Position numbers and translations under genes: made by a program
Part shown: in pieces, positions 41,615 through 61,123 of the stretch
How the letters are laid out: each line of letters begins with the position of its first letter
How positions within the stretch are numbered: the first letter of the stretch is position 1
The notes under the pieces: generated by a model
What the model saw: only the letters and a program-made list of their open reading frames with translations
What the model was told of the DNA's origin: nothing
Databases searched by the model: none
NCBI RefSeq assembly: GCF_010499455.1
Contig: NZ_JAAGOH010000017.1
Coordinates: 1-64,000 of the forward strand
Source: Ideonella livida
GTDB lineage: Bacteria; Pseudomonadota; Gammaproteobacteria; Burkholderiales; Burkholderiaceae_C
Direction of reading: 5' to 3'
DNA length: 64,000 nt

Positions 41615-41853
41615 GAATCCCAACTCCTGTGCTGACCTGGCGCCCTGATGGCGCGCCATTGGTGCGGCCACGGGTCAGGCCCGTGTGCCGCCCTCCCTTT
41701 GTCCGAAGGGGGATACAAACACTAACACTTGCATCGCGACAACTTGTCGCACTCCTCGCCGCCAGAACGTCGTGGTGTGGGCTGGCTTGTAGGTAGTTTC
41801 CCTTGGTATCCGGGCGACCGTGAGGAGGCGAGACGCTGTGCCATCATCTCTGG
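41615..41853. promoter_or_regulatory. Divergent intergenic region with a 15-base palindrome
   Basis: 239 bases between the binding-protein gene (-) and the molybdopterin oxidoreductase (+). At 41736-41750 there is GCGACAACTTGTCGC, a 7-base inverted repeat around one base, in an AT-richer stretch. Palindromes of this size are typical of dimeric regulator operators. No regulator gene is adjacent. Confidence 0.45.
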
Positions 41854-43929: not shown

Positions 43930-43934
43930 CCGCC

Positions 43935-45086: not shown

Positions 45087-45115
45087 CGCCCTCCACCACT
45101 CCTTTCGTATCGCCC

Positions 45116-45415
45116 ATGTCCGACATTTCCGTTCGCCGATCCCACAACCGCGGCCAGGCCTGGTGCCTGGAACAGGGCCAGGCCTGGGCCCGCATGGCCG
45201 AGCAGAAGTTCGACGTCACCTGCACCACCACCCAGGTCAACGGCTGCCCCGCCATCGAGTTCAAGCGCAGTGGCGTGCAGGGCGTGGTGCTCATGGGCGA
45301 GGACTTCATCGACATCTCCGCCAAGCTCGGCCTGCTGTTCAAGCCCTTTGCCAAGCGTGCCCAGGACGAGGTGGGGCAGGGCCTGGACAAGCTGATCGCC
45401 AAGGGCCGGCTCTGA
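45116..45415 (+). CDS. Polyhydroxyalkanoic acid system family protein
   Basis: 99 residues from ATG 45116. The segment VTCTTTQVNGCPAIEFKRSGVQGVVLMGEDFI is typical of this small family (PHA granule-associated region proteins), which is found beside polyhydroxyalkanoate genes in beta- and gammaproteobacteria. The molecular role is not established. Thirty bases after the lipoprotein gene on the same strand. Confidence 0.75.
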   Translation: MSDISVRRSHNRGQAWCLEQGQAWARMAEQKFDVTCTTTQVNGCPAIEFKRSGVQGVVLMGEDFIDISAKLGLLFKPFAKRAQDEVGQGLDKLIAKGRL

Positions 45416-45540
45416 GGGCCGGGGGGACAGCAAAAATCCACAGTCCGCCCCTAGGGCGACACTTGGGTGACAGCAAGGGGGCGGGTCGGTCGATACGATC
45501 GGCCACCCCGTTTCCTTGCGAGGCCATCCGCCTCCCCATC

Positions 45541-45795
45541 ATGAGCGACCTGAACTCCCGATTCCTGCAGGCCGTGGCCGACAGCAAGCAGCTGCCCGAG
45601 CGTCCTGACAACATGACGCTGCTGCGCATCTACGCCCTCTACAAGCAGGGCAGCGAGGGCGACGTCCAGGGCGAGCGCCCCGGTTTTGCCGATTTCGTCG
45701 GCCGCGCCAAGTTCGATGCCTGGTCGGCCCTGCAAGGCACCGCACCGGCCGAAGCCCAGCAGCTCTACATCGACCTGATCGAGTCGCTCAAGTGA
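45541..45795 (+). CDS. Acyl-CoA-binding protein
   Basis: 84 residues, the normal size of ACBP. The ligand-binding signature is visible: YALYKQGSEGDVQGERPG (about residues 31-48) and KFDAWSAL. It binds long-chain acyl-CoA esters in the cytoplasm. No PHA synthase gene lies in the window, but the neighbouring PHA-system gene suggests a shared lipid or polymer theme. Preceded by a 125-base intergenic region. Confidence 0.92.
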   Translation: MSDLNSRFLQAVADSKQLPERPDNMTLLRIYALYKQGSEGDVQGERPGFADFVGRAKFDAWSALQGTAPAEAQQLYIDLIESLK

Positions 45796-45825
45796 GCCGT
45801 GTGCCGCCGGGCCGTAGGCCCGGGC

Positions 45826-46323
45826 TCACATCTGGTCGGCCGAGCGTACGGCCACCAGCACCACCTCGCCGCGTTCTTCCCGCGGGCGGTAGCGCAACCA
45901 CCACACGCTGCCCTTCTTGATGGACCACGGCCGCAGCAGGTCTTGCGAGGGGCCGGCCATCCCGGCCAGCTGCGGCCCGATCATCAGGTAGGCGGCGGCC
46001 AGACCCAAGGTGGGCTGGTGGCCCACCACCAGCACCGGCTCCTTGGCCTCCGGCCAGCGCACGGCGGCCAGCAGGCTCTCCACCGTGGCCTCGGGCCCCA
46101 GCGCCTCCAGTGTCTTGACCCGTCGCGCCAGCGGCGCCACGGTCTGCTGCGCCCGCAGCGCCGGGCTGGCCAGCACCCGCGTGCCTTCGGGCAGGAAGCG
46201 GTTGAGCCATTCGGCCACGCGCCGGGCCTGCTTCTCGCCCTTGGGCGTCAGGCCACGGTCCAAGTCTCGGCCACCTTCGGGCAGGTCTTCGGCATCGGCA
46301 TGGCGCCACAGGATCAGGTCCAT
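45826..46323 (-). CDS. sixA: Phosphohistidine phosphatase SixA-like
   Basis: 165 residues. The histidine-phosphatase motif is LILWRHADAED at residues 3-13 (RHA instead of RHG, as in SixA), with the second His in VLVVGHQPTLGL. SixA removes phosphate from histidine on phosphotransfer proteins. Convergent with the acyl-CoA-binding protein gene. Confidence 0.85.
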   Translation of the reverse strand: MDLILWRHADAEDLPEGGRDLDRGLTPKGEKQARRVAEWLNRFLPEGTRVLASPALRAQQTVAPLARRVKTLEALGPEATVESLLAAVRWPEAKEPVLVVGHQPTLGLAAAYLMIGPQLAGMAGPSQDLLRPWSIKKGSVWWLRYRPREERGEVVLVAVRSADQM

Positions 46324-46420
46324 CGTCGTGTGTCAGGGGCAGCAAGGGCCGCCCCAGTCTAGGCCGCGAGGATGAACCGGACATGACGGCCGGCCCGGTG
46401 GGGCCGGGCGGTGGCCGCTT

Positions 46421-46978
46421 TCAGCCCAGCAGCCAGTCGTCGGCCGCCTGCAGCGCCGTCGTGTCGGCCAGCACCGCCCCCGGCGCGCCGCCCTGGCCCC
46501 ACAGCGGCGGCATCCAGCGCATGCCCATGAACTCGGCGCACATCGCCAGGCTGTCAAACATCGGCTGCGCCTTGGCGCGGCTGCCGTTGGTGGACACGGC
46601 CCACAGGCGTTTGCCGCTCATGCGGGCCTTGAAGTCCAGGCCTGGCACGCGCAGGAAGCCGCTCCAGTGGTCCAGCACCCCCTTGAGCGGGGCGGGCAGG
46701 CTGAACCAGTACACCGGGGCCACGGCCACCACATCGGTGGCCGCCAGCAGGGCGTCCAGCACGCGCTTCAGGTCGCCCTCGGGCGCGGCGTAGTGGCCCT
46801 GGGTGTGGCGCACATCCACAAAGGGCGGAATGTCCAGCTGCGACAGGTGCAGCCAGGTCTGCACGGAGCCTTCGGGCAGCGCCGCCGCAGCGCGCCGCGC
46901 CAGCGTTTCGGTGTTGCCCAGCTGGCCGGGCTCGCGGCTGTTGCTGACAAGGAACAGGACGTGACGGGTGGAACTCAT
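46421..46978 (-). CDS. NAD(P)H-dependent FMN reductase family protein
   Basis: 185 residues from ATG 46978; open frame continues upstream without family features. Begins HVLFLVSNSREPGQLGNTETLARRA (flavin phosphate loop), with VVAVAPVYWFSLPAPLKGVLDHW in the middle, the segment that contacts FMN in these flavodoxin-fold reductases. Probably reduces quinones, azo or nitro compounds. A single gene; upstream, 237 bases separate it from the MFS gene. Confidence 0.82.
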   Translation of the reverse strand: MSSTRHVLFLVSNSREPGQLGNTETLARRAAAALPEGSVQTWLHLSQLDIPPFVDVRHTQGHYAAPEGDLKRVLDALLAATDVVAVAPVYWFSLPAPLKGVLDHWSGFLRVPGLDFKARMSGKRLWAVSTNGSRAKAQPMFDSLAMCAEFMGMRWMPPLWGQGGAPGAVLADTTALQAADDWLLG

Positions 46979-47215
46979 GAGGTGATGACTTTGCCGAGAG
47001 GTGATCAGCGTTGTGCACGCAGCGTGCGACGCCGGTTCATTCTGACGGCGTTCGCCACAAGGGCGCTTGTCCCACTCGCCAGGGCTGTACGTCGTCCTGA
47101 GGCCGACAGGGCGGCCGTGCCCCGTCAAACATCCCTGACTTCAGTTTCGCAATGGTCTTGGTGAGGTCTGCAAAGCCATCCCGAGTCCGTCGCAACGCTG
47201 TCGCGGTCTGGGGCA
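46979..47215. other. Intergenic region at the left edge of the accessory block
   Basis: 237 bases with no gene I can support. Short open frames exist on the - strand but show no recognisable domain. It marks the change from the high-GC core-like genes to the accessory cluster starting with the MFS gene. Confidence 0.4.
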
Positions 47216-48457
47216 TCACCTGGCTTGCGGAGCGCTCGACGGCTCGGCCGAGTCCGTCAGCACCAGCCAGGCCGCGCTGGCGGCGAGCACCCCCAGCAAG
47301 GCCAGCGCGGTGAACGCGAACGTGACCGTGATGCTGAAGCGCTCGACCAGCTCGCCAAAACAGATCAGCAGGAAGGCGCTGAGATAGCCGAACAGGCGTT
47401 CCATGCGTGCGAACACCGTGATGCGTTGCGGCATGGTGAGGTGCTGGAGGTCCATCCGCGTTGTCACCACCGATCGGATGGCACCTGCGGCGATGCCGAG
47501 CAGCGAGATGCCGATGAGCGAGGTCGAGAAGATGTCGACGATGCCCCAGTCCTGAAGCCTGTCCGAGGCCGCGAACAGCGCGAGCGAACCGGCGATGCCG
47601 CTGAACGTGATCCATACCCCTGCCTGCGGTCCCAGCCAGGCGATGACCGGCGAGCCCCACAGCGCGACCACGAACCCGCCTAGGGTGAAGAGCCCCAGCA
47701 CGATGCCAAAGAGGTAGGGATCCACGTTCTGAAGCGCGAAGTGCAGAGGCAGTAGGCCGATGAAGGGGGCGAGCGCGAACCCGCGCGTGATCGCGTAGAA
47801 GCCCACCCAGGTGGTCTGATTGCGCGAAAGCGTGAAGGGTGGCGGTGGGGTGGACGGCTGCGTGACGCCAGACGGACGCGATGCCGGGGCGGCTGGCGTC
47901 GGCGGCGCTGAGATGAACAGCACCGCGATCATCGATACGACGGATGCCGCGATGCCGGCGTAGAACGCCCAGTGCATCTCGTGATCGAACAACACGCCAC
48001 CGATGAAGCCCGCCACCAGCGTGGCGATGAACATCATGCTTTGCGTGCGGCCCTGGATGTGTCCCAGCGTCTTGGCGTCCGCACCCGGGGCGGCGATGCG
48101 CAGCAGGCCGCCATCCGCCGCAAGCGCGAGGGCGAACCCCGTGCCGCCGATCACCTGCCCCAGAAACAGCGTGGGCAGCGACACCTCTCCCGGCAGCGTG
48201 CCGATGATCAGTACGACCAGACCGAGCGACTTCATGCATTCGCCAAGCAGCACCAGGCGCATCGCCGTCATGACGCGGCTCAGCCGCGGCGCAAGGTCTG
48301 CAGCCAGTGTGGATGCGCCGCTGTAAGTCGCCAGCAGCAGCGTCACGGTGCTGTACTCCGTTCGCAGGGACCAGAACAGCAGGAACAGCACGGGAAGATG
48401 GAAGTACAGCCGCGAGATCACCCGGTAGGCCATAAAGAGACGGACATTTCGGTTCAT
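47216..48457 (-). CDS. MFS transporter
   Basis: 413 residues with about 12 hydrophobic segments, beginning MNRNVRLFMAYRVISRLYFHLPVL. A long cytoplasmic loop around residues 185-215 is rich in Pro/Ala/Ser. The start at 48457 is chosen because the frame upstream translates the next gene out of phase. Substrate unknown. It is the last gene of a - strand series (hydroxylase, YrdC-like protein, transporter; 31 and 34 base gaps), so export of the cluster product or uptake of its precursor is plausible. Confidence 0.85.
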   Translation of the reverse strand: MNRNVRLFMAYRVISRLYFHLPVLFLLFWSLRTEYSTVTLLLATYSGASTLAADLAPRLSRVMTAMRLVLLGECMKSLGLVVLIIGTLPGEVSLPTLFLGQVIGGTGFALALAADGGLLRIAAPGADAKTLGHIQGRTQSMMFIATLVAGFIGGVLFDHEMHWAFYAGIAASVVSMIAVLFISAPPTPAAPASRPSGVTQPSTPPPPFTLSRNQTTWVGFYAITRGFALAPFIGLLPLHFALQNVDPYLFGIVLGLFTLGGFVVALWGSPVIAWLGPQAGVWITFSGIAGSLALFAASDRLQDWGIVDIFSTSLIGISLLGIAAGAIRSVVTTRMDLQHLTMPQRITVFARMERLFGYLSAFLLICFGELVERFSITVTFAFTALALLGVLAASAAWLVLTDSAEPSSAPQAR

Positions 48458-48491
48458 GGCTTCGCGGGCGGCTGGCGCGGCTGACGTTGCT

Positions 48492-49115
48492 TCACTGCAC
48501 CACGACGTCACCTTGGCGGACCACCTCGAGGCGGCCGCCCACCAGCGACACGATGGTGCTGGACTGTGTGGTTCCCGCATCGGAGTCCACCGGCGGCACG
48601 AACACCTCGATCCTGTCACCGAACAGTTCGGCCGCCAGCGCGGCGGACACCAGCCCATCGACGGTCGTGCCCGAGATGTTCGCCGACGTCATGGCAAGCG
48701 GCCCGTCCACCGCATCCAGCAATGCCCGCAGCGCGCTGTTGCGGTTGCAGACCAGCGAGATCGTCCGGGCGTCGAAGTACTTGTGCTTGGGCGCCTTGGG
48801 GCCGGCGCTCACGATCAAGTTCAGGGGCCCAGGCCAGAAACGCGCGGCCAGATCCTTGAAGAGCACTTCCTCCTCGGGCGACAGGTCGGCATAGGCCATG
48901 CCCTCCGCGGCGTCGCGCACGAACAGTGTCAGTGGCTTTTCGGCCGGGCGCTGCTTGATGTCGTAGAGCCGTGCGCATACCGCCTCGTCCTGAGGCAGGC
49001 AGCCGAGGGCGTAGTTGGTGTCGGTCGGCAGCAAGGCGACACCGCCCTGCTTCAAGCGCCGTGCGGCTGTTGTCGGATCGCAGGCTGTGGCTGCCCGAGT
49101 CATCGATGGGGTCAT
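48492..49115 (-). CDS. YrdC/TsaC-like threonylcarbamoyl-AMP synthase family protein
   Basis: 207 residues from ATG 49115; ATG 49103 and an upstream start at 49196 (inside the preceding gene) are alternatives. The YrdC domain shows LLPTDTNYALGC, IKQRPAEKPLTLFVRD and MTSANISG. The Lys/Arg pair of active TsaC is kept (IKQRP..KP), while YALGC is typical of YciO-type paralogues. TsaC makes threonylcarbamoyl-AMP from Thr, bicarbonate and ATP for tRNA t6A. Its placement between a hydroxylase and an MFS transporter suggests a specialised role, perhaps carbamoylation of another hydroxy amino acid, but the housekeeping role cannot be excluded. Confidence 0.8.
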   Translation of the reverse strand: MTPSMTRAATACDPTTAARRLKQGGVALLPTDTNYALGCLPQDEAVCARLYDIKQRPAEKPLTLFVRDAAEGMAYADLSPEEEVLFKDLAARFWPGPLNLIVSAGPKAPKHKYFDARTISLVCNRNSALRALLDAVDGPLAMTSANISGTTVDGLVSAALAAELFGDRIEVFVPPVDSDAGTTQSSTIVSLVGGRLEVVRQGDVVVQ

Positions 49116-49146
49116 GTGGTGTGGCCGAAGTTGGGGTGACTCGGGG

Positions 49147-50178
49147 TCAGGCCGCAAAGGCCGATTCGACGTGGTCATAGACGAAGCCGTCCACACCCGT
49201 TGTGAACGCTTCCCGGAAGCGGCGCATGTATTCGGGGCTGCGGAAGCTGTAGGTCTTCAGAAGCCAGCGGCGCCGGGCTTGCACCGGATAGCTCAGTTCC
49301 AAGATTTCGCGGTTGTGTAGTCCCGCCTGATTGGGGAAGGAAAACAGATCGCCCACGCCCAGGCGCACGCGTTGCCGGGTGGTGCGCACCAGCGCATCCT
49401 TCAGCGCGAGCATCGCGTCCCAGGCTTCGACCGGTGCCGCGGGCAGCGGCCGCGTCCGCGTGTCGTAATAGCGGAAGCAGTGCGACTCCTCCAGCACCGT
49501 ATGTGGCTTGGAGTCCACCTGCAAGGTGTTGGAGTCGCGTGAGTACTCGTCGTAGGGCGTGTGGAACAGCGGTTGACGGAGCGCTTCTTGGCAATGGGCG
49601 GGGAGCAGTCTCAGGATATCGCGGCCGTCGATGTATCCCGTGTAGATCAGGTTGCGCGGATCAGAGCGCATGCCAAGCAGGGCCAGGTAGTCGGCGCGGA
49701 CGGGATGCGCCGTGCGGTCGTTGTGGAAGTAGAGCTCGCCGTCGGTCTTCTGCGTTTGCGTGTTGCGGTAGCGGTTGTGCGCATAGACGTCGTGGAAGAA
49801 GTCGCCGTTGTTTCGGGTCGAGTACGCCAGCAGCGGCGAGCCGGTCAATTCGGCGAACAAAGCCAGGAAGCCCTCGGCGACGAAGGTCCGCTTCTGGCGG
49901 TACTTGTCTGTCACGGGATCGTCCTGGTCGAACACAGGCACCTCGGGGTCGAGCGGGCAATTGCGCAGCAGGTAAGCTGCTTCACCACCTGTTTCGCGGG
50001 CGACCAGGATGCGCTCACATGCGCTGGTCAGGGCATCGGGTAGCGCGCTCGATGTGGCCAGGTGAGAAATCTCCTCCTTGAATGCCAAATATTCGCTGTA
50101 GGGATTGGTGGACAGTTTCAGGAAGGTCGATGTCAGGGCTTCTTTGTCGTGTTCGCTCAGATGCAGGAACGGTTGCAT
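49147..50178 (-). CDS. Clavaminate-synthase-like Fe(II)/2-oxoglutarate-dependent amino-acid hydroxylase
   Basis: 343 residues from ATG 50178, which has AAGGAG ten bases upstream. Proposed iron ligands are His152 and Asp154 (FHNDRTAHPVRADY) and His288 (NQAGLHNREIL), with Arg302-304 for 2-oxoglutarate. The layout HxD/E...H...R(+14) and the downstream sequence ADYLALLGMRSDP match the clavaminate synthase-like group that includes VioC (Arg), AsnO (Asn) and lysine hydroxylases, which hydroxylate free amino acids. The substrate here is unknown. Probably first gene of a - strand unit with the YrdC-like and MFS genes. Confidence 0.82.
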   Translation of the reverse strand: MQPFLHLSEHDKEALTSTFLKLSTNPYSEYLAFKEEISHLATSSALPDALTSACERILVARETGGEAAYLLRNCPLDPEVPVFDQDDPVTDKYRQKRTFVAEGFLALFAELTGSPLLAYSTRNNGDFFHDVYAHNRYRNTQTQKTDGELYFHNDRTAHPVRADYLALLGMRSDPRNLIYTGYIDGRDILRLLPAHCQEALRQPLFHTPYDEYSRDSNTLQVDSKPHTVLEESHCFRYYDTRTRPLPAAPVEAWDAMLALKDALVRTTRQRVRLGVGDLFSFPNQAGLHNREILELSYPVQARRRWLLKTYSFRSPEYMRRFREAFTTGVDGFVYDHVESAFAA

Positions 50179-50391
50179 GATCTTTCTACTCCTTAAGTTT
50201 AGATTGACATTGAGTGGTGGCAATTTTTGAAATGCATGGCGACCCTGTCGATGTCGATGAAAATCGAATCACCATGCGCCGGGGGCGCGCCAGAAAACCT
50301 TTTGCCCCGATTTGAAAAGTCGCGCGTCGGCCGCGACGGCCGTCGAAAGACTTCTTGGCGAGGAGACCGGCAAGGGGGCCCGGTCCAAACT
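50179..50391. other. Spacer between HlyD-like gene and hydroxylase gene
   Basis: 213 bases, noticeably AT-richer near the hydroxylase start. No gene is supported. It contains the candidate promoter at 50196-50223 and no clear terminator for the HlyD-like gene. Confidence 0.45.
50196..50223 (-). promoter_or_regulatory. Candidate sigma-70 promoter of the hydroxylase gene
   Basis: On the - strand TTGCCA and TAAACT are separated by 16 bases, a moderate match to -35 and -10 boxes, within an AT-rich stretch about 20 bases upstream of the hydroxylase start. It would allow hydroxylase-YrdC-MFS to be transcribed apart from the genes upstream. Assigned by eye only. Confidence 0.35.
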
Positions 50392-51672
50392 TCAGGGTGT
50401 GGTGGGCCGCGGATCCAGCGAAGCAGAGGTCCTGGTGCCGTCGCTGGGCAGCACTTCCACGCTGCGCCCCACATTGCACAGGGGCGCGCTCCGTTCCTCT
50501 GGCCCCCATTCCACCTGGATGCGCGCGGTGGCGACGCGGACCGGTAATTGACGGCGCATGACCTCCGGTGGCGGGTCCACCACGTACTGCCCGACGGTCA
50601 CGCGTCCCGTCCCGTATCGGACGCTGATCACTTCGCCGTCCCATTCGTGACCGGCGTCGTAATACGAGCGCACCTTGACCCGTGTGCCCGCTGCCATGCG
50701 AGCGGCGTCCTTCTCGCTGAAGAAGGCTTCCACCCAACGGTCTTCGCAGTTCACCAGTTGCAGCACGGCACCTTGACGGGTCACCGCGTTGCCACTGTTC
50801 GCGTCAATGCTCCAGATCGCGCCCTGCACCGGCGACGTCAGCCTCGCGCTTGTCTGCTTGTCCAGCTCCCGTTGCAGCACGGCGGCTTCCGCGACGATGG
50901 CCTGGATCTGCATGTCCAGCTGGCCTTTCCTCGCGGTGAGATCGGCAATCGATTGAGCGATCTCCTGGCTGCGCGTCACGGCGTAAGGCAGGCCTCTCGA
51001 ACCATCGAGCTGCACGCCTTGGCGCGCCCCCGTCAGGACCGTCTCCGCACGCTGCACGGCCTCCTTCGAGGCGCGCTGCGCAGCACGCGCCATGTCTTCC
51101 TCGGCCTTGGCGGTGTCATAGGCGGCGACGCTGATGAAGCCCGAGGTACGCAGGGAGTCGTAACGCTCGACCTTGCTCCTGGACTCGCCGAGCGCGGTAT
51201 TGGCACGTTCGAACTCGGCGACCGCCAGCGCCAGACTCGCGCGCGCACCCTGTACATCCACCGTCTGCTGGACACTCGCCCGCTGCTGCTGCTCCGCCAT
51301 CTCCTTGCGGCGATGCGCCAGCTGGACGTCGATGGCCTCGATTTCTGCTTGGCGCGCCGCGCGTTGCGAGACCAGCTCGGCGATGTTGCCGGTGAGTTCC
51401 GATATCCGCGGATTCTCGGTGTCGCCCACCACGGCGCCTAGTTGTTCTCCCTTGGCGATGCGCCGGCCCACCCGCAAGCCGTCTTCAAGTTGGGTGCGAC
51501 CTGGAATGGGCGCACGCAAGGTGATCACCGGTGCATTGATGAATGCTTGCGTGGTGATCTGCCGCGTCTCGCGGTAGACCAGCGTCCCGGCCACGATGCA
51601 AGTGACCGCCCCGCATGCAAGCATGACGCCGCCTTTTCGGCTTTGCAGGCGCTCACGCCAAGTGTTCAACAT
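50392..51672 (-). CDS. HlyD-family membrane fusion (periplasmic adaptor) protein
   Basis: 426 residues from ATG 51672 (a GTG two codons upstream is possible). One membrane helix (about residues 15-35) is followed by a split biotinyl-lipoyl domain (VITLRAPIPGRTQLEDGLRVG ... RLTSPVQGAIWSIDANSG) around a long alpha-helical hairpin rich in Gln/Ala/Arg (about 80-270), then a beta-barrel. Such adaptors join an inner-membrane transporter to an outer-membrane channel. No ABC, RND or 14-helix MFS partner is adjacent; the only transporter nearby is the 413-residue MFS protein four genes downstream. Starts right after the PEBP gene stop. Confidence 0.85.
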   Translation of the reverse strand: MLNTWRERLQSRKGGVMLACGAVTCIVAGTLVYRETRQITTQAFINAPVITLRAPIPGRTQLEDGLRVGRRIAKGEQLGAVVGDTENPRISELTGNIAELVSQRAARQAEIEAIDVQLAHRRKEMAEQQQRASVQQTVDVQGARASLALAVAEFERANTALGESRSKVERYDSLRTSGFISVAAYDTAKAEEDMARAAQRASKEAVQRAETVLTGARQGVQLDGSRGLPYAVTRSQEIAQSIADLTARKGQLDMQIQAIVAEAAVLQRELDKQTSARLTSPVQGAIWSIDANSGNAVTRQGAVLQLVNCEDRWVEAFFSEKDAARMAAGTRVKVRSYYDAGHEWDGEVISVRYGTGRVTVGQYVVDPPPEVMRRQLPVRVATARIQVEWGPEERSAPLCNVGRSVEVLPSDGTRTSASLDPRPTTP

Positions 51673-51678
51673 GCCCAC

Positions 51679-52182
51679 TCACGGCCGTCCGTATTGACCG
51701 GTCAGCGTCGCGGTCGCCAGAGTGTTCTGGTGGATCATGAAGCGAACGATGGCATTGGTGACGCCACGACCCGGGCTCAGCCCCAGCGAGGGCACGCCCA
51801 GGGCGTGCAAGGTGAAGAGGTAGCGGTGCGCCGCGGCGCCCTTCGGAGGGCAGGGTCCGCCGTAGCCCGTGGCACCGAAGTCGTTTTCTGCCTGGAGGCC
51901 GATACCGGTCAGCGCCGACACGTCAACAGAGCCGACGCCTTGCGCGAGCTGCCTCGCTTCGGCGGGAATGTCGTACAGCACCCAATGCCAGAAGCCGCTG
52001 CCTGTCTGGGCATCCGGGTCGTACATGGTGAGCGCGAAGCTGCGCGTGTTGGCCGGCGCCCCTTGCCACTGCAGCGCGGGCGAGCGGTTGTGGCCCTCAC
52101 CGTCGAAGCCGTTGAACTCGTGCGTCTTGCTCAGTTCTGCCTGCTCCTTGAAGTCAGGCGATGTGATCGTGAAGTTGGTCAT
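51679..52182 (-). CDS. YbhB/YbcL (PEBP) family protein
   Basis: 167 residues. Family anion-binding motifs are visible: TMYDPDAQTGSGFWHWVLYD (about residues 51-70) and GYGGPCPPKG with HRYLFTLHAL. Bacterial PEBP proteins are small cytoplasmic or periplasmic proteins with an anion-binding pocket and no firmly known activity. No signal peptide. It abuts the HlyD-like gene and lies 103 bases after the aconitase-family gene, so cotranscription is likely. Confidence 0.9.
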   Translation of the reverse strand: MTNFTITSPDFKEQAELSKTHEFNGFDGEGHNRSPALQWQGAPANTRSFALTMYDPDAQTGSGFWHWVLYDIPAEARQLAQGVGSVDVSALTGIGLQAENDFGATGYGGPCPPKGAAAHRYLFTLHALGVPSLGLSPGRGVTNAIVRFMIHQNTLATATLTGQYGRP

Positions 52183-52285
52183 CTGCAGCCCTGTGTTGCC
52201 GCCAATGGGTGTGCCATGTGGCTGGCGCGTATGTCCCTCCGCTCGCTGATGGGCGCGAGGCGGTACATCGTTTGAATACGGTGAA

Positions 52286-54274
52286 TCAATCTGCCGTGGC
52301 CGGCGCTCCCTTCTCGACCCGGCTCTGCAACGCCGAGAACGTGATGAGCTCGCCTGCCAACGCGCTGGCCGCGACGCTGGCCGGACTCGCGAGCCACACC
52401 TGGCCTGGTCCCGAACGTCCGGGGAAGTTGCGGTTGATCGCGCTCACCGTCACCTGGTCGGCCGATGTGGAGGATCCCGGTCCGCAGTTGGCGCAGGCGC
52501 CGCAACCGGGCATCAGCATCTCGGCTCCGGCCTGTTCGAACACGGCCAGCATGTCGCGTTCTTCGCAATAGCGCTTCACGTCCTGGGTGCCGAACTGCAG
52601 ATAGAGGGAGACGTTCGGCTGCACCTTGAGCCCATGTTTCAATCCCCACGCGAAAACCGCCAGGTACTCGTCGAAATCGGCGCGCTTGCCAGCGGTGCAG
52701 GAGCCGCCGTAGGCTATGTCGATGGGCACCGCTCGGCCGATCCTGCTGAATGGCATGCCGTTGCCCGGATCACCGGGCGCCGCGAACATCGGCTCGATGG
52801 CGGAGCAGTCGATCGAGATCGTGTGCTGGTACACCGCGCCCGCGTCGCTCTTCATCCACGGCTCCAACTCGAAGTCCACGCCGCGGCGTTCCTTGAGGAA
52901 CATGACCGTCTGCTCATCGGGCGCCACGATGCCGGTGAAACCACCGAGTTCCGCCACCATGTTGGTGAGCGTGGCGCGGTCGTCCACCGACATGCGCTCG
53001 ACCGCGGGTCCGGTGTACTCGAACACCATGCCGATGCCGCCGCCCTCCGCAATGAAGGGTGAGCGCAGGAGTTCCAGCACCACGTCCTTGGCGTGCACGC
53101 CCGGCTGGAGTTCTCCTTTGAGCTCGACGCGGCAGACCGCTGGGTGCTTGCACCGCACGAGCCCCGTCACCCAGGCATTGGCCATGTCCGTGGCGCCCGC
53201 ACCGAAGCACAGCGCGCCCAGCGCGCCAGAATGCGGGGTGTGCGAGTCGGTGCCGACCGCCACCTGCCCGGGAAGGACATAGCGCTCGGCCATCATGGCG
53301 TGGCAAATGCCTTCCGACCCCAAGGTGCCCGGCATCGCGCCGTGGCCGATGACGCCGTAGTCCCTGACGAAATGGTCGTGTCCGTCTGCCAAGCCGCGCA
53401 CGCCCTCCACCAGGCCCATCTTCTGGTGCACCGGGCTGCGCGTGACGTAGGTGAGGTGATCCTGGAACGCGATGATGGTGGCCGGGTCGTGCAGCGGGGC
53501 TGGCTTGCCGAAGGCGTCGTGCATCAGGTGCGCGGCCATCCCGGTGAAGTATTCGTGCGAGAAGCGCCAGTCCGTCTTCAGGAAGATGCCGTCGCCCACC
53601 TTGGGCGGCTGTGCATCCTCGGCCAGCCAGGGCGCGCTGACCAGATGGCGGTTGATGATCTTGTGCACGAGGCTGAGAGGGCGGTCGCTCCCCGCGGGGG
53701 CCGGCCGTGCGGCCTGGCCTCGGAAGTTCTCCTTGGAGAGCGCAAGCAGACCACCTGCGCGAATGATCCGTTGTGTGAGTTCGTCGTGGCCTTCCGTGAA
53801 CTCGCTCAGCGCGATGGCCTCTCCCCGCTGGATGCGCGCCACCAGCCCCAGATCGGTCGAGGTGAGGAGCCCCACGTTGTGCGCGTTCTGCCGATAGATG
53901 CGCTCGAAGCTTTCGGCGATGACCAACTGGATGCCCGCGCTCAACTCCGCCATCGGGCTGTTCTCCCGCGAGGACCCCTTGCCGTAGCGCTTGCCTCCAA
54001 CGACGACCGCAAAGCCGCCCTGGCGCACGGCGCCTTTGCCGATCGGCATGACGCCGCCGGCCTGATAACCGACGTAAGGAAACTCGCCCAGGCGGTCGTC
54101 ATAGACCGTCATGACGGTCGTCGGCGTGATCTCGTCGGTGGACACGTTGTCCCGCAAGGTGCCGGCCTGCTCCAGTGTGAAGTCGCCGCCCTCCAACTGC
54201 CGGGTGATGCGGGCGGGGTCGTCGCAGAGGAAAAGGATGCGTCCTTCGAAGGTGACAGAGGGGGTGTTCGGCAT
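52286..54274 (-). CDS. Aconitase-superfamily hydro-lyase with N-terminal swivel domain
   Basis: 662 residues. The swivel domain comes first: residues about 35-200 contain the LeuD/AcnB-type loop YGKGSSRENSPMAEL and VIAESFERIYRQNAHNVG. The catalytic domain follows (about 205-650), with TDSHTPHSGALG, a cluster Cys in GGSCTAGK and two more in PGCGACANCG, so all three 4Fe-4S ligands are likely present. This is the AcnB order without the HEAT domain, not the AcnA order. Substrate cannot be assigned: aconitate, methylcitrate, homoaconitate and citramalate-type acids are possible. Divergent from the GntR regulator. Confidence 0.85.
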   Translation of the reverse strand: MPNTPSVTFEGRILFLCDDPARITRQLEGGDFTLEQAGTLRDNVSTDEITPTTVMTVYDDRLGEFPYVGYQAGGVMPIGKGAVRQGGFAVVVGGKRYGKGSSRENSPMAELSAGIQLVIAESFERIYRQNAHNVGLLTSTDLGLVARIQRGEAIALSEFTEGHDELTQRIIRAGGLLALSKENFRGQAARPAPAGSDRPLSLVHKIINRHLVSAPWLAEDAQPPKVGDGIFLKTDWRFSHEYFTGMAAHLMHDAFGKPAPLHDPATIIAFQDHLTYVTRSPVHQKMGLVEGVRGLADGHDHFVRDYGVIGHGAMPGTLGSEGICHAMMAERYVLPGQVAVGTDSHTPHSGALGALCFGAGATDMANAWVTGLVRCKHPAVCRVELKGELQPGVHAKDVVLELLRSPFIAEGGGIGMVFEYTGPAVERMSVDDRATLTNMVAELGGFTGIVAPDEQTVMFLKERRGVDFELEPWMKSDAGAVYQHTISIDCSAIEPMFAAPGDPGNGMPFSRIGRAVPIDIAYGGSCTAGKRADFDEYLAVFAWGLKHGLKVQPNVSLYLQFGTQDVKRYCEERDMLAVFEQAGAEMLMPGCGACANCGPGSSTSADQVTVSAINRNFPGRSGPGQVWLASPASVAASALAGELITFSALQSRVEKGAPATAD

Positions 54275-54311
54275 GGGCGACTCAGTATGTATCGGCTTTC
54301 GTATCGCTATA

Positions 54312-54344
54312 TGTATACGTAAAGGTATGGGGGTGATGATACGT
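54312..54344. promoter_or_regulatory. Putative GntR/FCD operator in the aconitase-gntR divergent region
   Basis: TGTATACGTA at 54312-54321 contains the GTATAC core expected for FCD-type GntR regulators (GT-N-AC symmetry). A second ATACGT lies at 54339-54344, and CGTAT on the other side near 54299. The same 10-mer TGTATACGTA occurs upstream of leuC. It is positioned to control both divergent genes. Confidence 0.6.
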
Positions 54345-54355
54345 TAGAATCAGCC

Positions 54356-55036
54356 ATGGGCAAGCTCAAGAAACCCCCTCAGGCAACAGCCAGCGATGTT
54401 GTTTACAACGCGTTGCAGCACAAGATCATCAACAACCTGCTTCCCGGCGGCAGCCAGCTGTTGGAGGAAGAGGTCGCGGCGGAAATGCATGTCAGCCGCA
54501 CGCCTGTGCGCGCGGCGCTGGCGAGGTTGGAGGTCGAGGGGCTGGTGTATGCGGTGCGTCGGCACGGGTACCGGGTGACGCCGATCACCGTGCAGGACGT
54601 GCGCGAGATCTATCAGGTCCTGTCCCCGCTCGAGACGGTCGCGGCGGAGTTGCTGGCCGAGAAGGACCCCAACGGGCTGGAAGTGGATGCGCTGCAGGAG
54701 TGCATCGACCGCATGGATGCGGCGCTGAAGAACGACGACCTCCAGGCCTGGGCGGACGCCGATGAGCTGTTCCATGCCCGCTTGGTGGATCTGTGCGGCA
54801 ACAAGCGTCTGGCGCGGGCCGCCAAGTTGATGTTCGCGCAGTCGCATCGGGTGCGGTTGTTCGCGCTGCGACTGCGGGACAAGCCCGTCAATTCAGTGAA
54901 GGACCACGGTGCCTTGGTGGACGCGATACGGCAGAAGAGGCCGGCCCTGGCACGTGAGATCCACAGTGCCCATCGGGACTCCTGGACGGAGACGCTGGGG
55001 CAGATACTCGCTGATCTGAATATCCACCAGCTTTGA
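54356..55036 (+). CDS. GntR-family (FCD) transcriptional regulator
   Basis: 226 residues. The winged helix-turn-helix is at about residues 15-75 (LLEEEVAAEMHVSRTPVRAAL, then EGLVYAVRRHGYRV). The C-terminal FCD ligand-binding domain has DADELFHARLVDLCGN and a His in VKDHGALVDAI, typical metal/carboxylate-binding positions. FCD regulators usually sense small organic acids. It lies between two - strand units, an aconitase-family gene and leuCD, and motif copies near both suggest it controls them. Confidence 0.9.
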   Translation: MGKLKKPPQATASDVVYNALQHKIINNLLPGGSQLLEEEVAAEMHVSRTPVRAALARLEVEGLVYAVRRHGYRVTPITVQDVREIYQVLSPLETVAAELLAEKDPNGLEVDALQECIDRMDAALKNDDLQAWADADELFHARLVDLCGNKRLARAAKLMFAQSHRVRLFALRLRDKPVNSVKDHGALVDAIRQKRPALAREIHSAHRDSWTETLGQILADLNIHQL

Positions 55037-55161
55037 TGGGCACCAAGCCGCCGGGATCCGTGTGCGGCGGTGGTCAAGGTTTGTGCGGGGTGCCCATGCG
55101 GGTGTCAGGCGGACACCGCGCGGCGCCCCCTTGGGGGGGCGATGTCGGCGAGGGCGTCGTC

Positions 55162-55782
55162 TCAGACCAGTGAAGCCCGGTCGTACAGCCAAGGCTGGCG
55201 CGTCTGCTGTGTGCGCTCGAACTCGCTGATCTTGGTCGCCTGCTCCAGGGTGATGCCGATGTCGTCCAGGCCGTTCAGCAAGCAGTATTTGCGGAACTCG
55301 GTGACCTCGAACGCGAATTGGCGGCCGTCCTCCAGCGACACCCTCTGCGAAGGCAGGTCGACGGTGACCTGACGTCCCGCCTTGGCTTCCTGCATCACCT
55401 GGCCCACTTCGTCATCGGTCAGGATCACCGGCAGCAGCCCATTCTTGAAGCAGTTGTTGTAGAAGATGTCCGCGAATGAGGGCGCGATGATGCTGCGGAT
55501 CCCGAAGTCGTAGAGTGCCCAGGGCGCATGTTCGCGGGAGGAGCCGCAGCCGAAGTTCTCCAGCGCGACAATGAGTTTTGCCTCCCGCCAGGGAGCCTGA
55601 TTCAACACGAAGTCCGGGTTTTCCGAGCCGTCGTCGAGGATTCGGTATTCGCGGAACAGGCCCCAGCTGAGGCCGGTCTTGGTCACCCACTTCAGCATGT
55701 ACTTGGGGGTGATCATGTCGGTGTTGATGTTGGGAATCGGCATGGGTGCCGCGTACCCTTGGATGGTGGTGAACTTTTCCAC
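55162..55782 (-). CDS. leuD: 3-isopropylmalate dehydratase small subunit (LeuD type)
   Basis: 206 residues, usual for LeuD. The swivel-domain signature FGCGSSREHAPWALYDFGIRS is split around residues 72-90, and SFADIFYNNCFKNGLLPV follows. GTG start three bases after the leuC stop. With LeuC it isomerises 2- to 3-isopropylmalate or a related 2-hydroxy acid. No leuB or leuA is present here, and a GntR gene is divergent, so this may be a paralogue for another substrate. Confidence 0.9.
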   Translation of the reverse strand: MEKFTTIQGYAAPMPIPNINTDMITPKYMLKWVTKTGLSWGLFREYRILDDGSENPDFVLNQAPWREAKLIVALENFGCGSSREHAPWALYDFGIRSIIAPSFADIFYNNCFKNGLLPVILTDDEVGQVMQEAKAGRQVTVDLPSQRVSLEDGRQFAFEVTEFRKYCLLNGLDDIGITLEQATKISEFERTQQTRQPWLYDRASLV

Positions 55783-55785
55783 GGT

Positions 55786-57204
55786 TTACTTCCAGTTTCT
55801 GATGTCGACGAAACGGCCGGCGATGGCTGCCGCGCCGGCCATGGCCGGGCTGACGAGATGGGTGCGGCCACGGGGGCCCTGGCGTCCGACGAAATTGCGG
55901 TTGGACGTGGAGGCGCAGCGCTCCTCGGGCTGGAGGCGGTCGGGGTTCATGGCAATGCACATCGAGCAGCCCGGTTCGCGCCACTCGAAGCCGGCATCGA
56001 TCAGGATCTGCGCCACGCCTTCTTCTTCGGCCTGCCGCTTGACCAGTCCGGATCCCGGCACGACCAGCGCTTGGACGTGGGGCGCGACGCGCCGCCCTTC
56101 GACGAGCCTTGCCACCTCTCGCAGGTCCTCGATCCGGCTGTTGGTGCACGAGCCGATGAACACCTTGTCGATCTTGATATCCGACATCTTCTGGCCGGCC
56201 TGCAGCCCCATGTACTCCAGCGCAGCCATGGCGGCCTGACGCGAGACATCGTCCTTGGCGGCTGCGGGATCCGGCACCACGTCCGTCACCTGCACGACGT
56301 CCTGGGGGCTGGTGCCCCACGTCACCATGGGGGCGACTTCAGAAGCATCGATCTCCACCTCTGTGTCGTACACGGCGCCCGGATCCGACGGCAGCGTCTT
56401 CCAATACGCGAGCGCCTGCTCCCAGTGGTGCGCCTTGGGTGCGCCAGGCCGTCCCTTGATGTAGTCAAAAGTGGTGTCGTCCGGCGCGATGAGACCCGCC
56501 CTGGCGCCTGCTTCGATCGCCATGTTGGACATGGTCATGCGGCCTTCCATCGACAAGGCGCGCACCGCGGAGCCGGCGAACTCGATGACGTGTCCGGTCG
56601 CGCCCGCGGTTCCGATGCGGCCGATGATGGCCAGGACGAGGTCTTTGGCTGTCACCCCGGGGCGAAGGAGGCCGTGGCAGGTGATCCGCATGTTTCTGGA
56701 GCGCTTCTGGATCAAGGTCTGCGTCGCCAGCACATGCTCCACCTCCGACGTGCCGATGCCCACCGCATAAGCGCCGAAGGCACCGTGGGTGGATGTGTGG
56801 CTGTCGCCGCACACGATGGTCATGCCGGGCTGGGTTAAGCCCTGCTCCGGGCCGACGACGTGCACGATGCCCTGGCGTGGATCTTCATAGCCGAAGTAGG
56901 TCACGCCGAACTCACGGGTGTTCTTTCGCATCAGCGAGAGCTGCAGCTTCGCCTCCGGGTCTTCGACATCGTCGGTGCGGCCTGGTGTCGTGGGGATGTC
57001 GTGGTCCGCGACCCCCAGCGTGGCGTCCAGCCGGCGCACCTTCCGCCCTGCGCCGCGCAATCCGTCAAAGGGTTGCGGCGTGGTCACTTCGTGGACCAGG
57101 TGTTGATCGATATACAGCAGGGCAGTGCCGTCGGAGAAGTTGTGCAAGACATGGGAGTCCCAGATCTTGTCGTACAAGGTCCGTGGCGTAGCTTCTTTCA
57201 TCAT
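55786..57204 (-). CDS. leuC: 3-isopropylmalate dehydratase large subunit (LeuC type)
   Basis: 472 residues, normal for Leu[21 protein letters not shown] near residue 132 and the cluster cysteines in IGSCTNSR and [10 protein letters not shown] are all present, so a functional 4Fe-4S hydro-lyase is expected. Start at ATG 57204 (or 57201) after GAGG. Forms a heterodimer with LeuD. A TATACGTATA palindrome lies 26 bases upstream, linking it to the GntR regulator. Confidence 0.92.
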
Positions 57205-57227
57205 CGCGTCCTCAAGAAATATTTATG

Positions 57228-57239
57228 TGTATACGTATA
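57228..57239. promoter_or_regulatory. Putative GntR/FCD operator upstream of leuC
   Basis: TGTATACGTA (57228-57237) is identical to the site in the gntR-aconitase intergenic region, and TATACGTATA (57230-57239) is a perfect 10-base palindrome. It lies 24-35 bases before leuC, where a repressor would interfere with transcription. Confidence 0.6.
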
Positions 57240-57366
57240 AGGATTGTAGATGATGTGGGGCGCACCCGTCTGCGCTTCTGTTCTTGAGGGGCGGGGTCTC
57301 TCGCCCGGCGCGCAAGGACCAGCGGCGGGGCCACTCCGGCCAGCCGGTGCCGGACCAGCCCGCGGG

Positions 57367-57656
57367 CGTCATGTCTTCGTGGCCATCAACCGGGCCACAC
57401 GCTGGGTGTTCATGGCCTCAAGGGCCACTAGGCGGTGGCGGCTGTGCGGGCTTCTTGAACGCGCTGGCCAAGGCCGCGCCGTTTCGCATCCGCACGCTGC
57501 TGACGGACAACGGCAAGGCGTTCACCGACCGCCTGTTTGCTTCAACGGCCGCCCGGACCCTGAGACCCCGGTGCAGGCGCTCATGCGATGGCGCCGCTCC
57601 TCTCCCGAAGGATTCCAAAAGTCAATTTGGAATCATCCGGGGCCTGACAGTGCAGT
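57367..57656 (+). pseudogene. IS481-family transposase remnant
   Basis: Three pieces of a typical IS481 DDE transposase are recognisable. HVFVAINRATRWVFMA (from about 57367) is in one frame. FLNALAKAAPFRIRTLLTDN (from about 57449, with the second catalytic Asp) is in another. ETPVQALMRWRRSSPEGFQK (from about 57562), resembling the extreme C-terminus, is back in the first frame. The section between the second Asp and the C-terminus is missing, so the catalytic Glu region is deleted. No terminal repeats were identified. Not functional. Confidence 0.8.
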
Positions 57657-57679
57657 CGCCGTGCGGATCACCCCTCAGA

Positions 57680-58576
57680 TCACAGGCTCACCGTGCCGCT
57701 GATGCAGGCGGCCACGTCGCCACCCACCCACAGGGTGTCGCCGTCTTGTTCCAAATGCACGCGGCCGTCGCGGCCCAGGGCATGGCCTTGGGCGGCGGTG
57801 TAGCGGGTGGGGGCCAGGCCGGCGCCGATGAGCCATTGGCCCAGGCTGGCGTTGAGGCTGCCGGTGACCGGGTCTTCAAAGCCCTGACCTTCGCCGTCCA
57901 GCGGGCCACCCACCAGGGCGCGCACTTCAAACTGGGCGTCGGCCGGGGCACCGGCCTCACCGTCGTGCCACGGCGCCACCACGCCCAGCTTCAGGCCGCG
58001 CAGGGCGTCCCAATCGGGTTGCAGGGCGCGCACCTGGGCGCCGCTGGCCAGACGCACTGCCGCCCAGCCGGGGCCGTTGTCCGCCCATTGGTGGCCCAGC
58101 AGGTCGGCTGGCGCCAGGCGCAGGGCCGTGGCGATCTGCGCCAGCAGCGCGTCGTCCAGTGGGCCGGTGCGGGTGCAGGGCGGGGCGGCAAAGGCCAGGC
58201 GGTCGCCTGCGCCGGGCTTGGCGCCCGGAGCCGGTGTACGGCGGATGCGGATCAGGCCGGCGCCGCATTCCTGCACCACCACGCCGGGCTTGCCCGGCAG
58301 GCCGCCGGCCGCCAGCCAGGCGCGGCAGCTGCCCAGCGTGGGGTGGCCAGCAAAGGGAAATTCCTCATGCGGCGTGAAGATGCGCACCCGGTAGTCTGCG
58401 CCGGGCTGGGTGGGCGAGAGCAGAAAGGTGGTTTCGCTCAGGTGGGTCCAGCGGGCGAAGGCGGCCATCTCGGCCGTGCTCAGGCCATCGGCATCGTGGA
58501 CCACGGCGAGCGGGTTGCCGCGCAGGGGCGTGGCGGTGAAGACATCCAGCTGGGAGAAGCGGCGCAGGGTGGGCAT
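57680..58576 (-). CDS. PhzF-family isomerase/epimerase
   Basis: 298 residues. Family hallmarks: LDVFTATPLRGNPLAVV at the N-terminus, the catalytic Glu in HLSETTFLLSP (about residue 48) and FTPHEEFPFAGHPTLGS near 67-83; the C-terminal half repeats the fold and ends with VTGSLNASLGQWLI. These diaminopimelate-epimerase-fold enzymes isomerise unknown substrates, in one case a phenazine precursor. First of the block of amino-acid-related - strand genes but separated from the dehydratase gene by a repeat-containing spacer. Confidence 0.9.
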   Translation of the reverse strand: MPTLRRFSQLDVFTATPLRGNPLAVVHDADGLSTAEMAAFARWTHLSETTFLLSPTQPGADYRVRIFTPHEEFPFAGHPTLGSCRAWLAAGGLPGKPGVVVQECGAGLIRIRRTPAPGAKPGAGDRLAFAAPPCTRTGPLDDALLAQIATALRLAPADLLGHQWADNGPGWAAVRLASGAQVRALQPDWDALRGLKLGVVAPWHDGEAGAPADAQFEVRALVGGPLDGEGQGFEDPVTGSLNASLGQWLIGAGLAPTRYTAAQGHALGRDGRVHLEQDGDTLWVGGDVAACISGTVSL

Positions 58577-58612
58577 GGGGGGTGGGGTGGGCTGTGGCGA
58601 AGGGATGAAAGG

Positions 58613-58655
58613 GCGGGAGGAGCGGGAAGAGCGGGAAAGAGCGGGAAAGAGCGGG
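58613..58655. repeat. Short tandem repeat, unit GCGGGAAAGA
   Basis: Four and a half units of 9-10 bases (GCGGGAGGA, GCGGGAAGA, GCGGGAAAGA twice, then GCGGG) lie between the PhzF-like gene and the dehydratase gene. On the - strand the unit is pyrimidine-rich (TCTTTCCCGC). Copy number may vary between strains. Confidence 0.8.
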
Positions 58656-58682
58656 CTCGTTCAGCCGCTGCAAAGGTGGCCG

Positions 58683-59750
58683 TCAGCGCGGCAGGGCCGG
58701 TGCCGGAGACGGCGCATCAGCAGGCGCACCAGCAGGCGCATCGGCCAACACCTGGGCCAGCAACGGCCGGTCGATGTTGCCACCGCTGAGGATGGCGGCC
58801 ACCCGCAGTCCCTGCAGTTGGGCGGCCTCCTGGCGCACGGCGGCCAGCGCGGCGGCGCCAGCGCCTTCGGCCACGTTGTGGGTGCTCTCGAACACCCAGC
58901 GGATGGCCTGCGCCACTTCCTCGTCGCTCACGCTCACCACCCGGGCCAAGCCGGCGCGCAGGCGGGCCAGGGCTTCGGGGTGCGGGGTGCGGCAGGCCAT
59001 GCCGTCGGCCAGCACGGTGCTCACCTCGGCGGGCAGGGGCAGGCCGGTCTCAAAGGCCCGCGCAAAGGCCGGGGCGCCGGTGCTGACCACGCCAATGATC
59101 TCGGTGGACAGCCCCAGCGCGTCACGCGCAGCCACCAAGCCGGCGGCCCCGGATCCCATGCCGATCGGCACGTAGACCCGCTGCAAGTCAGGCTGGGCGG
59201 TGAACAGCTCCAGCGCATAGCTGGCCACACCGGCCACCAGATCGCCGTGGAAGCTGGGCACCATGTGGGCGCCGGTGTGGGCAGCAAAGGCCACGGCGGC
59301 CTCTACGGCGGCCTGAAAGTCTTGGCCGGCTTCCACCAGCTCGGCCCCCAGCGCGCGCATGGCGGCGTTCTTCTCGCGGCTGTTGCCTTGGGGCACAAAG
59401 ATGGTGACGGGCAGGCCGTGGCGGCCGGCCGCAAACGCCAGCGATTGGCCGTGGTTGCCCCGCGTGGCGCTCACCAGTCCGCGGGGCGCTTCACCCGCGG
59501 CCGCCCAGCGTGCCATTTGGCGTTGTACGTACACCAGGCCCCCACGCACCTTGAACGCACCCAGCGGGGTGTGGTTTTCATGCTTGACCCACAGCGCGGC
59601 GCCGGCGGGCAGTGCCTGTTCCAACAAAGGCCAGCGGTACTGCGGCGTGGGTGGCAGCACGGCGTGCACGGTGTCGGCAGCGGCGCGCAAATTGGCGAGG
59701 CTGGGGGCCGCCGTTGGGGCGGAGGCGAAAAAGGAGGTGTCAGTGGTCAT
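58683..59750 (-). CDS. PLP-dependent threonine/serine dehydratase-like protein
   Basis: 355 residues of the fold-type II PLP family. The PLP Lys is in TPLGAFKVRGGLVYVQ (about residue 68), and the phosphate-binding Gly loop is in PIGMGSGAAGL (about 196-206). It lacks the C-terminal ACT regulatory domain of biosynthetic IlvA, so a catabolic or diverged dehydratase is more likely. Substrate (Thr, Ser or a hydroxy amino acid) is inferred from family. Same strand as the aminotransferase upstream (148-base spacer). Confidence 0.88.
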   Translation of the reverse strand: MTTDTSFFASAPTAAPSLANLRAAADTVHAVLPPTPQYRWPLLEQALPAGAALWVKHENHTPLGAFKVRGGLVYVQRQMARWAAAGEAPRGLVSATRGNHGQSLAFAAGRHGLPVTIFVPQGNSREKNAAMRALGAELVEAGQDFQAAVEAAVAFAAHTGAHMVPSFHGDLVAGVASYALELFTAQPDLQRVYVPIGMGSGAAGLVAARDALGLSTEIIGVVSTGAPAFARAFETGLPLPAEVSTVLADGMACRTPHPEALARLRAGLARVVSVSDEEVAQAIRWVFESTHNVAEGAGAAALAAVRQEAAQLQGLRVAAILSGGNIDRPLLAQVLADAPAGAPADAPSPAPALPR

Positions 59751-59897
59751 GGCGGTGCGGATTAAAAAAGGGCGGCGCAGGGCGAGGCTGGCCCCACCGC
59801 CGGGCGGGCCGGCAGTGCAGGGGCAGTGAGAGGGGCGGCGGGGGCGGGGCGGCTCAGCGCCCCGCGTGGGGTGGGCCGATCAGGCTGACTAGGCCGA

Positions 59898-61121: not shown

Positions 61122-61123
61122 GG

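Follow-up and report, generated by a model that had tools for sequence, protein, structure and literature searches.

The question raised by this locus is whether nine neighbouring genes that match no familiar pathway belong together and, if so, what kind of molecule they serve. The genes occupy positions 47216 to 57204 of a 64,000-nucleotide stretch of the Ideonella livida genome (RefSeq assembly GCF_010499455.1, contig NZ_JAAGOH010000017.1), referred to below as the window. A first-pass annotation made from the sequence alone had viewed them as one coherent set, with its own regulator, a pair of hydro-lyase systems and genes of exporter type, and our results support that view. We consider it highly probable that the block is a real, conserved and mobile biosynthetic cluster; it looks like a member of an overlooked, horizontally spread family of natural-product pathways and not like a set of chance neighbours. 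The narrower proposal, a horizontally acquired, GntR-controlled cluster for a small molecule made from a malate-type acid, we consider evenly balanced, with the specific order of steps as a working model.

Gene set and layout

All nine genes named in the first-pass annotation are intact open reading frames (ORFs), are correctly placed and match their families in Pfam or NCBIfam, so the observation of the gene set is confirmed:

47216 to 48457, minus strand: MFSa, a major facilitator superfamily (MFS) transporter of a rare subfamily (Pfam MFS_1)
48492 to 49115, minus strand: YrdC-A, a stand-alone TsaC-type (threonylcarbamoyl-AMP synthase-like) protein (Pfam)
49147 to 50178, minus strand: OX, a clavaminate-synthase-like (CAS-like) Fe(II)/2-oxoglutarate (2OG) oxygenase (Pfam/NCBIfam)
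50392 to 51678, minus strand: HlyD/EmrA-like periplasmic adaptor (Pfam/NCBIfam)
51679 to 52182, minus strand: PEBP (YbhB/YbcL-like) protein (Pfam/NCBIfam)
52286 to 54274, minus strand: ACN, a fused swivel-first hydro-lyase of the aconitase superfamily (Pfam/NCBIfam)
54356 to 55036, plus strand: GntR/FCD regulator (Pfam)
55162 to 55782, minus strand: LeuD, small subunit, type I (above the NCBIfam leuD cut-off)
55786 to 57204, minus strand: LeuC, large subunit, type I (above the NCBIfam leuC cut-off)

The MFSa frame is open up to 48658, and the ATG at 48457 was taken as its start. There are two minus-strand units, one in the order ACN-PEBP-HlyD-OX-YrdC-MFS, with gntR divergent from ACN, and the other consisting of leuCD with leuC first. 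Gaps inside both units do not exceed 103 bp, save for 213 bp between HlyD and OX.

Conservation of the gene set

We tabulated 33 loci using a panel of query proteins drawn from the clusters themselves; the family search did not name every gene of every locus. The loci were collected by OX similarity alone, so the count of hydro-lyases is unselected, and they are related by descent and hence not mutually independent. Seven were set aside, namely L107 (which continues L025), L110 (no OX) and L015, L030, L037, L038 and L123 (OX remote or broken), leaving 26 loci with a close OX relative for counting. A hydro-lyase of the aconitase superfamily is present in the same stretch in 23 of these 26. The three loci without one are L023, where OX lies less than 2 kb from the contig end, L026, where it lies at the contig end, and L027 of Dyella monticola. 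The last (9631-10894) has a seemingly start-less OX beside an MFSa fragment, with no YrdC or hydro-lyase in the stretch, and is probably a decayed cluster copy. OX, a hydro-lyase, YrdC-A and MFSa occur together in 11 loci, the window included, from Pseudomonadota, Bacillota and Actinomycetota, so the hydroxylase-YrdC-MFS part and the hydro-lyase part keep company in three phyla. Moreover, the gene order of the window is shared by a Ramlibacter locus (L016). The mobile-element (IS481) fragment at one border might suggest that unrelated genes have simply come to lie side by side, but the co-occurrence in the 11 four-gene loci and the common order in Ramlibacter effectively rule out chance adjacency.

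The loci fall into two main types. Type A comprises 13 (the window, L016-L022, L025, L028, L029, L031 and L128) and has a YrdC protein of family a or b; PEBP is present in 12 of the 13, YrdC-A with MFSa in 11 and HlyD in eight. The eight type B loci (L012, L013, L036, L043, L121, L122, L129 and L130) have, in place of YrdC, an aminotransferase, an FAD/NAD-binding protein, an isochorismatase-like hydrolase and a cupin, and five of them also have LeuA. Five loci belong to neither type: L014 and L024, which have a hydro-lyase, and the three without one.

Several individual loci deserve mention. A Staphylococcus epidermidis plasmid (L013, 7730-20241) carries a type B cluster with LeuA, LeuCD, OX, cupin, FAD/NAD protein and transaminase, with a hisC and a gap gene at the cluster ends. 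On a Vibrio halioticoli plasmid (L014, 6992-17866), OX and LeuCD are accompanied by one protein resembling a non-ribosomal peptide synthetase (NRPS) and by one ATP-grasp protein. In Tenebrionibacter intestinalis (L031, 9540-10548), OX is divided over two overlapping reading frames. In Streptomyces katrae (L029, 5370-6722), OX is directly followed by an ORF of 451 residues that has no Pfam match and has a relative in L028.

Evidence for horizontal acquisition

OX proved rare. In a single-sequence search (E<=1e-3), OX was found in 3 of 300 genomes of the order, including its own, the other two hits having 27-28% identity. With an OX profile at E<=1e-30, it was detected in 2 of 398 genomes of the phylum (its own and G524) and in 3 of 399 genomes of the family (its own and two remote hits, about 32% identity), being absent from the five other same-genus genomes listed in the family search. 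Counting the reference genome each time, the same profile gave 2 of 198 genomes in the family of G524, 4 of 100 relatives of one Streptomyces (one of them remote) and 4 of 118 Enterobacter mori relatives. A search of the E. coli genomes collection with a 4-kb Enterobacter piece gave no match. Of 299 genomes of the phylum, MFSa was present in one, its own.

In a same-genus genome, G1251, about 4.1 kb of DNA with other, unrelated genes separates the two flanking genes (PhzF-like and flavodoxin-like), which suggests a variable site. At E<=1e-30 the left flanking gene was found in only G1251 among 15 other same-genus genomes, so the variable site is known from this one relative, in which OX itself was not searched for. 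Together, the rarity of OX and the variable site support acquired DNA. The IS481 remnant noted earlier at the block end is real but short and is supported by DNA similarity, the Pfam rve match being under the cut-off:

57348 to 57532: IS481-family transposase gene fragment, a border mark, about 70% identical at the DNA level to the IS481-like ISRme14/ISKpn27 transposase genes

The block had also been thought lower in GC than its flanks. The dip is real though modest against the immediate flanks (0.648, compared with 0.705 at 35001-47215 and 0.722 at 57205-64000), but it does not hold against the whole window. Since GC is 0.654 at 8-33 kb, near the block value, and a value equally low or lower is reached in 12 of the 217 sliding 10-kb windows, GC alone is weak evidence. 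GC at third codon positions is 0.79-0.86 across the nine genes and 0.84-0.92 for five flanking genes. The lowest composition lies elsewhere: positions 1-4000 have a GC of 0.56-0.59, distinctly under the remainder of the window.

Exchangeable hydro-lyases

The first-pass annotation had counted two separate hydro-lyase systems. Both are present, but separate pathways are not required, because the kinds substitute for each other in relatives: OX loci have type I LeuCD, type II LeuCD or fused ACN. LeuCD and fused ACN occur together in the window, in Ramlibacter L016 and in B. seminalis (L025 plus L107), and in G524 and G1223, from another family, fused ACN lies beside OX and LeuCD is not there. 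ACN has the SCT...CxxC cysteines and the GSSRE loop and is 60.6% identical to the B. seminalis cluster copy and 57.7 and 58.0% identical to those of G524 and G1223.

LeuC and LeuD score well above their cut-offs (763.7 against 560.25, TIGR00170, and 233.7 against 116.25, TIGR00171). No leuB lies beside the leuCD of the window, unlike in the housekeeping leuCDB operon. The genome has three LeuC-type copies, on contigs C15, C17 (the window copy) and C28. The C15 copy is of the leuCDB type, with a LeuB-like ORF judged from its translation; the C28 copy adjoins a type I restriction-like gene, likewise judged from translations. In the LeuC tree, which has some long branches and several open forks, the cluster proteins are polyphyletic: the window and Ramlibacter pair lies among proteobacterial LeuC, the Vibrio cluster protein beside LeuC of G524 and G1223, and those of Streptomyces and Staphylococcus elsewhere. 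Set against the split in the YrdC tree described below, this polyphyly makes it look as if cluster LeuC was repeatedly recruited or replaced, whereas YrdC-A was inherited with the cluster.

A branched hydroxy-acid, proposed earlier as something made or used by the block, is plausible as an intermediate. An enzyme of this superfamily might also act on an amino acid, given that a hydroxyproline is dehydrated by aconitase X (PMC5144071).

The hydro-lyases and the regulator might instead belong to a catabolic island, with ACN, GntR and LeuCD degrading an imported tricarboxylate and the other genes as passengers. Two other replicons do carry ACN relatives next to genes for HMG-CoA lyase or a tricarboxylate transporter, and FCD-type GntR regulators are often catabolic. 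Nevertheless, we regard this as very unlikely, since the nine genes include no recognised uptake system save the MFS protein, which accompanies an export-type HlyD, and since OX, YrdC and MFSa are conserved with the hydro-lyases across phyla. MFS and HlyD are both encoded in the window cluster, a TolC-like gene being found only in the B. seminalis locus, and judging by gene families the product would be exported rather than imported.

The oxygenase and its substrate class

OX retains the iron and 2OG residues typical of clavaminate-synthase-like oxygenases (H-x-D/E...H and the 2OG-binding Arg), here H152-x-D154...H288 and R304, and has K308 at the place of the substrate-carboxylate Arg of the family. 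Its nearest NCBIfam profiles are GntD, Cs1 and VioC, and the nearest structures in a fold search are KDO1, NapI, AsnO and OrfP, identity to the 50 chains listed being 23% at most. These neighbours, together with the 2OG and carboxylate sites kept by R304 and K308, fit the model of the first-pass annotation, in which OX is an ordinary amino-acid hydroxylase acting on leucine or a similar compound, its supply is raised by LeuCD through leucine synthesis and a hydroxylated amino acid results. The position that contacts the amino group of the substrate (P2) points the other way. In VioC, Gln137 at P2 binds this group, and most groups of amino-acid hydroxylases in the family have Gln or Glu there (PMC6224419). 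OX has Arg122, and Arg occupies this position in 24 of 24 sequences examined (17 of set A1 plus seven; L026 and L031 not included, and the L030 fragment lacking the region). Because Arg122 replaces the amine-holding residue throughout, an amino-acid substrate is doubtful. This hydroxylase model also leaves ACN and YrdC unexplained. We have accordingly demoted it from first choice, on account of the P2 column, and consider it improbable. It is more likely that Arg122 would grip a second carboxylate and that the substrate of OX would be a carboxylic acid supplied by the hydro-lyase (LeuCD or ACN).

Arg122 was matched to P2 by a profile alignment to OrfP and by residue spacing to the iron-binding His, with VioC numbering from PMC6224419. 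An alternative match, with OX keeping the amine-binding Gln of VioC as Q141, was rejected because that spacing gives Arg122. The remote OX relative L011 has Gln at P2. A further remote branch (L037, L038 and L123) has Val at P2, an HxD motif and no other panel genes nearby, and possibly represents another substrate class.

YrdC-A: a possible catalyst or spare target

YrdC-A has the KxR/SxN tetrad and the T/S/R threonine site of TsaC/Sua5 proteins, the roles of these residues being taken from PMC10321239 and their numbering matched via alignments to 6f89 and 9d3h. The K/R/S/N/S/R residues are kept in 11 of 11 sequences, and the third threonine-site residue is Thr in nine and Ser in two. Nonetheless, YrdC-A scores under the curated cut-offs (103 against 123.2 for TIGR00057; 62.9 against 175 for PRK10634), and the Arg/His stretch of housekeeping YrdC rows is missing from it. 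In the tree, 15 rows (10 YrdC-A, three YrdC-C, Skermanella and Halobellus) are split with support of 100/98 from 17 rows taken as housekeeping by judgement; the tree is midpoint-rooted with long branches flagged, one short row from the own genome was omitted and family b was not included. The Halobellus plasmid copy groups with the cluster rows yet stands outside any such cluster. Four loci of enterobacterial type (L019, L021, L031 and L128) have three YrdC-like genes each. YrdC-C lacks the Arg of KxR and the SxN (L019, L021 and L031) and may be a non-catalytic partner. On a Skermanella mucosa plasmid (L110, 7956-11064), there is a YrdC-HlyD-MFSa triple homologous to that of the window, with HlyD between the other two; it sits behind acyl carrier protein, ketosynthase, reductase and adenylation genes, and no OX or LeuCD was found within the 16.5 kb read.

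These observations bear on another explanation of the same kind of cluster, in which YrdC, and perhaps LeuCD, would serve self-protection: the target of an exported threonine- or malate-like antimetabolite would be either isopropylmalate isomerase or threonylcarbamoyl-AMP (TC-AMP) synthase, of which the cluster would hold insensitive spares. In favour of this, YrdC-A keeps its ATP and threonine residues, and its genome has two further YrdC-type genes. MFSa relatives adjoin YrdC-A in all 11 OX loci having it (10 besides the window), and in Skermanella, where OX is absent, only HlyD parts the two. Repeated, independent recruitment of LeuC from different lineages is what spare targets would show. 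On the other hand, three hydro-lyase kinds are in use, including fused aconitase; LeuA, an aminotransferase and LeuCD occur together in five of eight type B clusters, pointing to synthesis; enterobacterial clusters hold two more diverged YrdC-like genes, one without the KxR Arg and SxN; and YrdC-A lacks the housekeeping Arg/His stretch. On balance, we consider self-protection unlikely, though somewhat less so than the hydroxylase model.

A putative GntR operator

A ten-nucleotide motif marks the two promoters that a GntR regulon would be expected to include:

54312 to 54321: putative GntR operator TGTATACGTA, between ACN and gntR
57228 to 57237: second putative GntR operator TGTATACGTA, upstream of leuC

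These are the only two exact copies in 64 kb. With one mismatch allowed, there is one extra match, which overlaps the first site; shuffled sequences gave a mean of 0.10 hits. In the 12.1 kb of Ramlibacter L016, the core GTATACG is confined to the two corresponding promoters. We infer that GntR binds this motif. There is no TGTATACGTA-type motif ahead of OX, which lies 213 bp past HlyD and could have its own promoter; a consensus scan there gave weak matches only.

A proposed pathway

It is tempting to combine these observations into a working model of synthesis. LeuCD and/or fused ACN would isomerise or dehydrate a 2-substituted malate, probably drawn from leucine or citrate-type metabolism, since the nine genes of the window include no LeuA. 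OX would then oxidise the resulting di- or tricarboxylate. YrdC would use ATP and bicarbonate to convert threonine, or an amino acid resembling it, into a carbamoyl-adenylate, which would then cyclise or be coupled to the acid. Because TC-AMP lasts only minutes before it breaks down to an isocyanate (PMC9654439), a partner or cyclisation has to be proposed for this step. The MFS protein and HlyD, helped by a TolC-like protein in clusters that have one, would export the product; we also infer a role for the PEBP protein. Recruitment of a TsaC-type enzyme for amino-acid carbamoyl activation, paired with the aconitase-superfamily and 2OG-oxygenase enzymes to give carbamoyl- or ureido-linked or cyclised hydroxy-acids without NRPS or polyketide synthase among the shared genes, is offered tentatively, as a bolder reading with less than an even chance. 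The earlier synthesis-and-export model is thus retained as regards a coherent, conserved unit, but its hydroxylated amino acid has become the less likely product and it left the YrdC active-site residues without a use.

Several points weigh against our proposal. The Xenorhabdus clusters L020 and L022 are without YrdC-A and MFSa in the available stretches. ACN relatives are not rare on plasmids (44 of 72,556 records over at least 80% of ACN length), and four that were inspected have other gene settings. LeuCD scores like an ordinary isopropylmalate isomerase and so may merely boost leucine. P2 is not an absolute marker, given that CAS1 itself is exceptional in having Leu there (PMC6224419). The AlphaFold model of OX is poor near the active site (block means 31-39, residues 121-150), so the placement of Arg122 rests on sequence alignment. 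Finally, the OX-less Skermanella triple would suit protection or a link to export just as well as biosynthesis.

If the proposal is true, the block represents a class of specialised-metabolite clusters that is small but widely dispersed and whose shared genes include none of the usual marker enzymes. Ordinary genome mining would tend to miss such clusters. Full-text literature searches, which left most subscription journals outside their coverage, found no published description of one. The proposal bears on whether YrdC/TsaC, a universal enzyme of tRNA modification, has a further role in natural-product chemistry or self-protection, and on a 2OG oxygenase that appears to have exchanged an amino-acid grip for an acid grip.

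Comparison with known systems

Like EmrAB-TolC-type exporters, the cluster has an MFS protein and a HlyD adaptor, to which B. seminalis adds a TolC-like gene; in contrast to them, its MFS protein forms a rare subfamily of its own and no TolC is among the nine genes. OX resembles the amino-acid hydroxylases VioC, OrfP, KDO1, AsnO and NapI in fold and in iron and 2OG sites, but differs in the Arg at the amine-binding position, the HxD iron motif and its low identity. YrdC-A shares the KxR/SxN and threonine-site residues with TsaC/Sua5, yet it falls under the NCBIfam cut-offs, is separate in the tree, lacks the Arg/His stretch and, unlike in the TsaC/Sua5 setting, has no TsaD-like gene among the nine (Pfam).

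Pantaphos clusters (hvr/HiVir, Pantoea ananatis) carry an MFS export gene, as the block does. They also share with it the swap between LeuCD-like hydro-lyase and aconitase and a proposed oxygenase step: the hydro-lyase is LeuCD-like HvrDE, for which one cluster type substitutes a putative aconitase, and an oxygenase is proposed to act next (PMC7858074). By contrast, the nine genes include no phosphoenolpyruvate mutase or LeuA-like phosphonomethylmalate synthase (Pfam/NCBIfam; the rest of the genome was not searched), the oxygenase is 2OG-dependent where that of pantaphos is flavin-dependent, and the block adds YrdC and PEBP. The IOC beta-lactone cluster leuABCD-iocS of Xenorhabdus/Photorhabdus and the cystargolide/belactosin clusters likewise divert a leucine-pathway-type alkylmalate into a bioactive small molecule (PMC9177418, PMC11427300). 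Unlike these, the nine genes include no ANL-type ligase, no alkylmalate synthase of the IOC/cystargolide type and no methyltransferase (Pfam/NCBIfam), and the block has instead a 2OG oxygenase and a YrdC protein.

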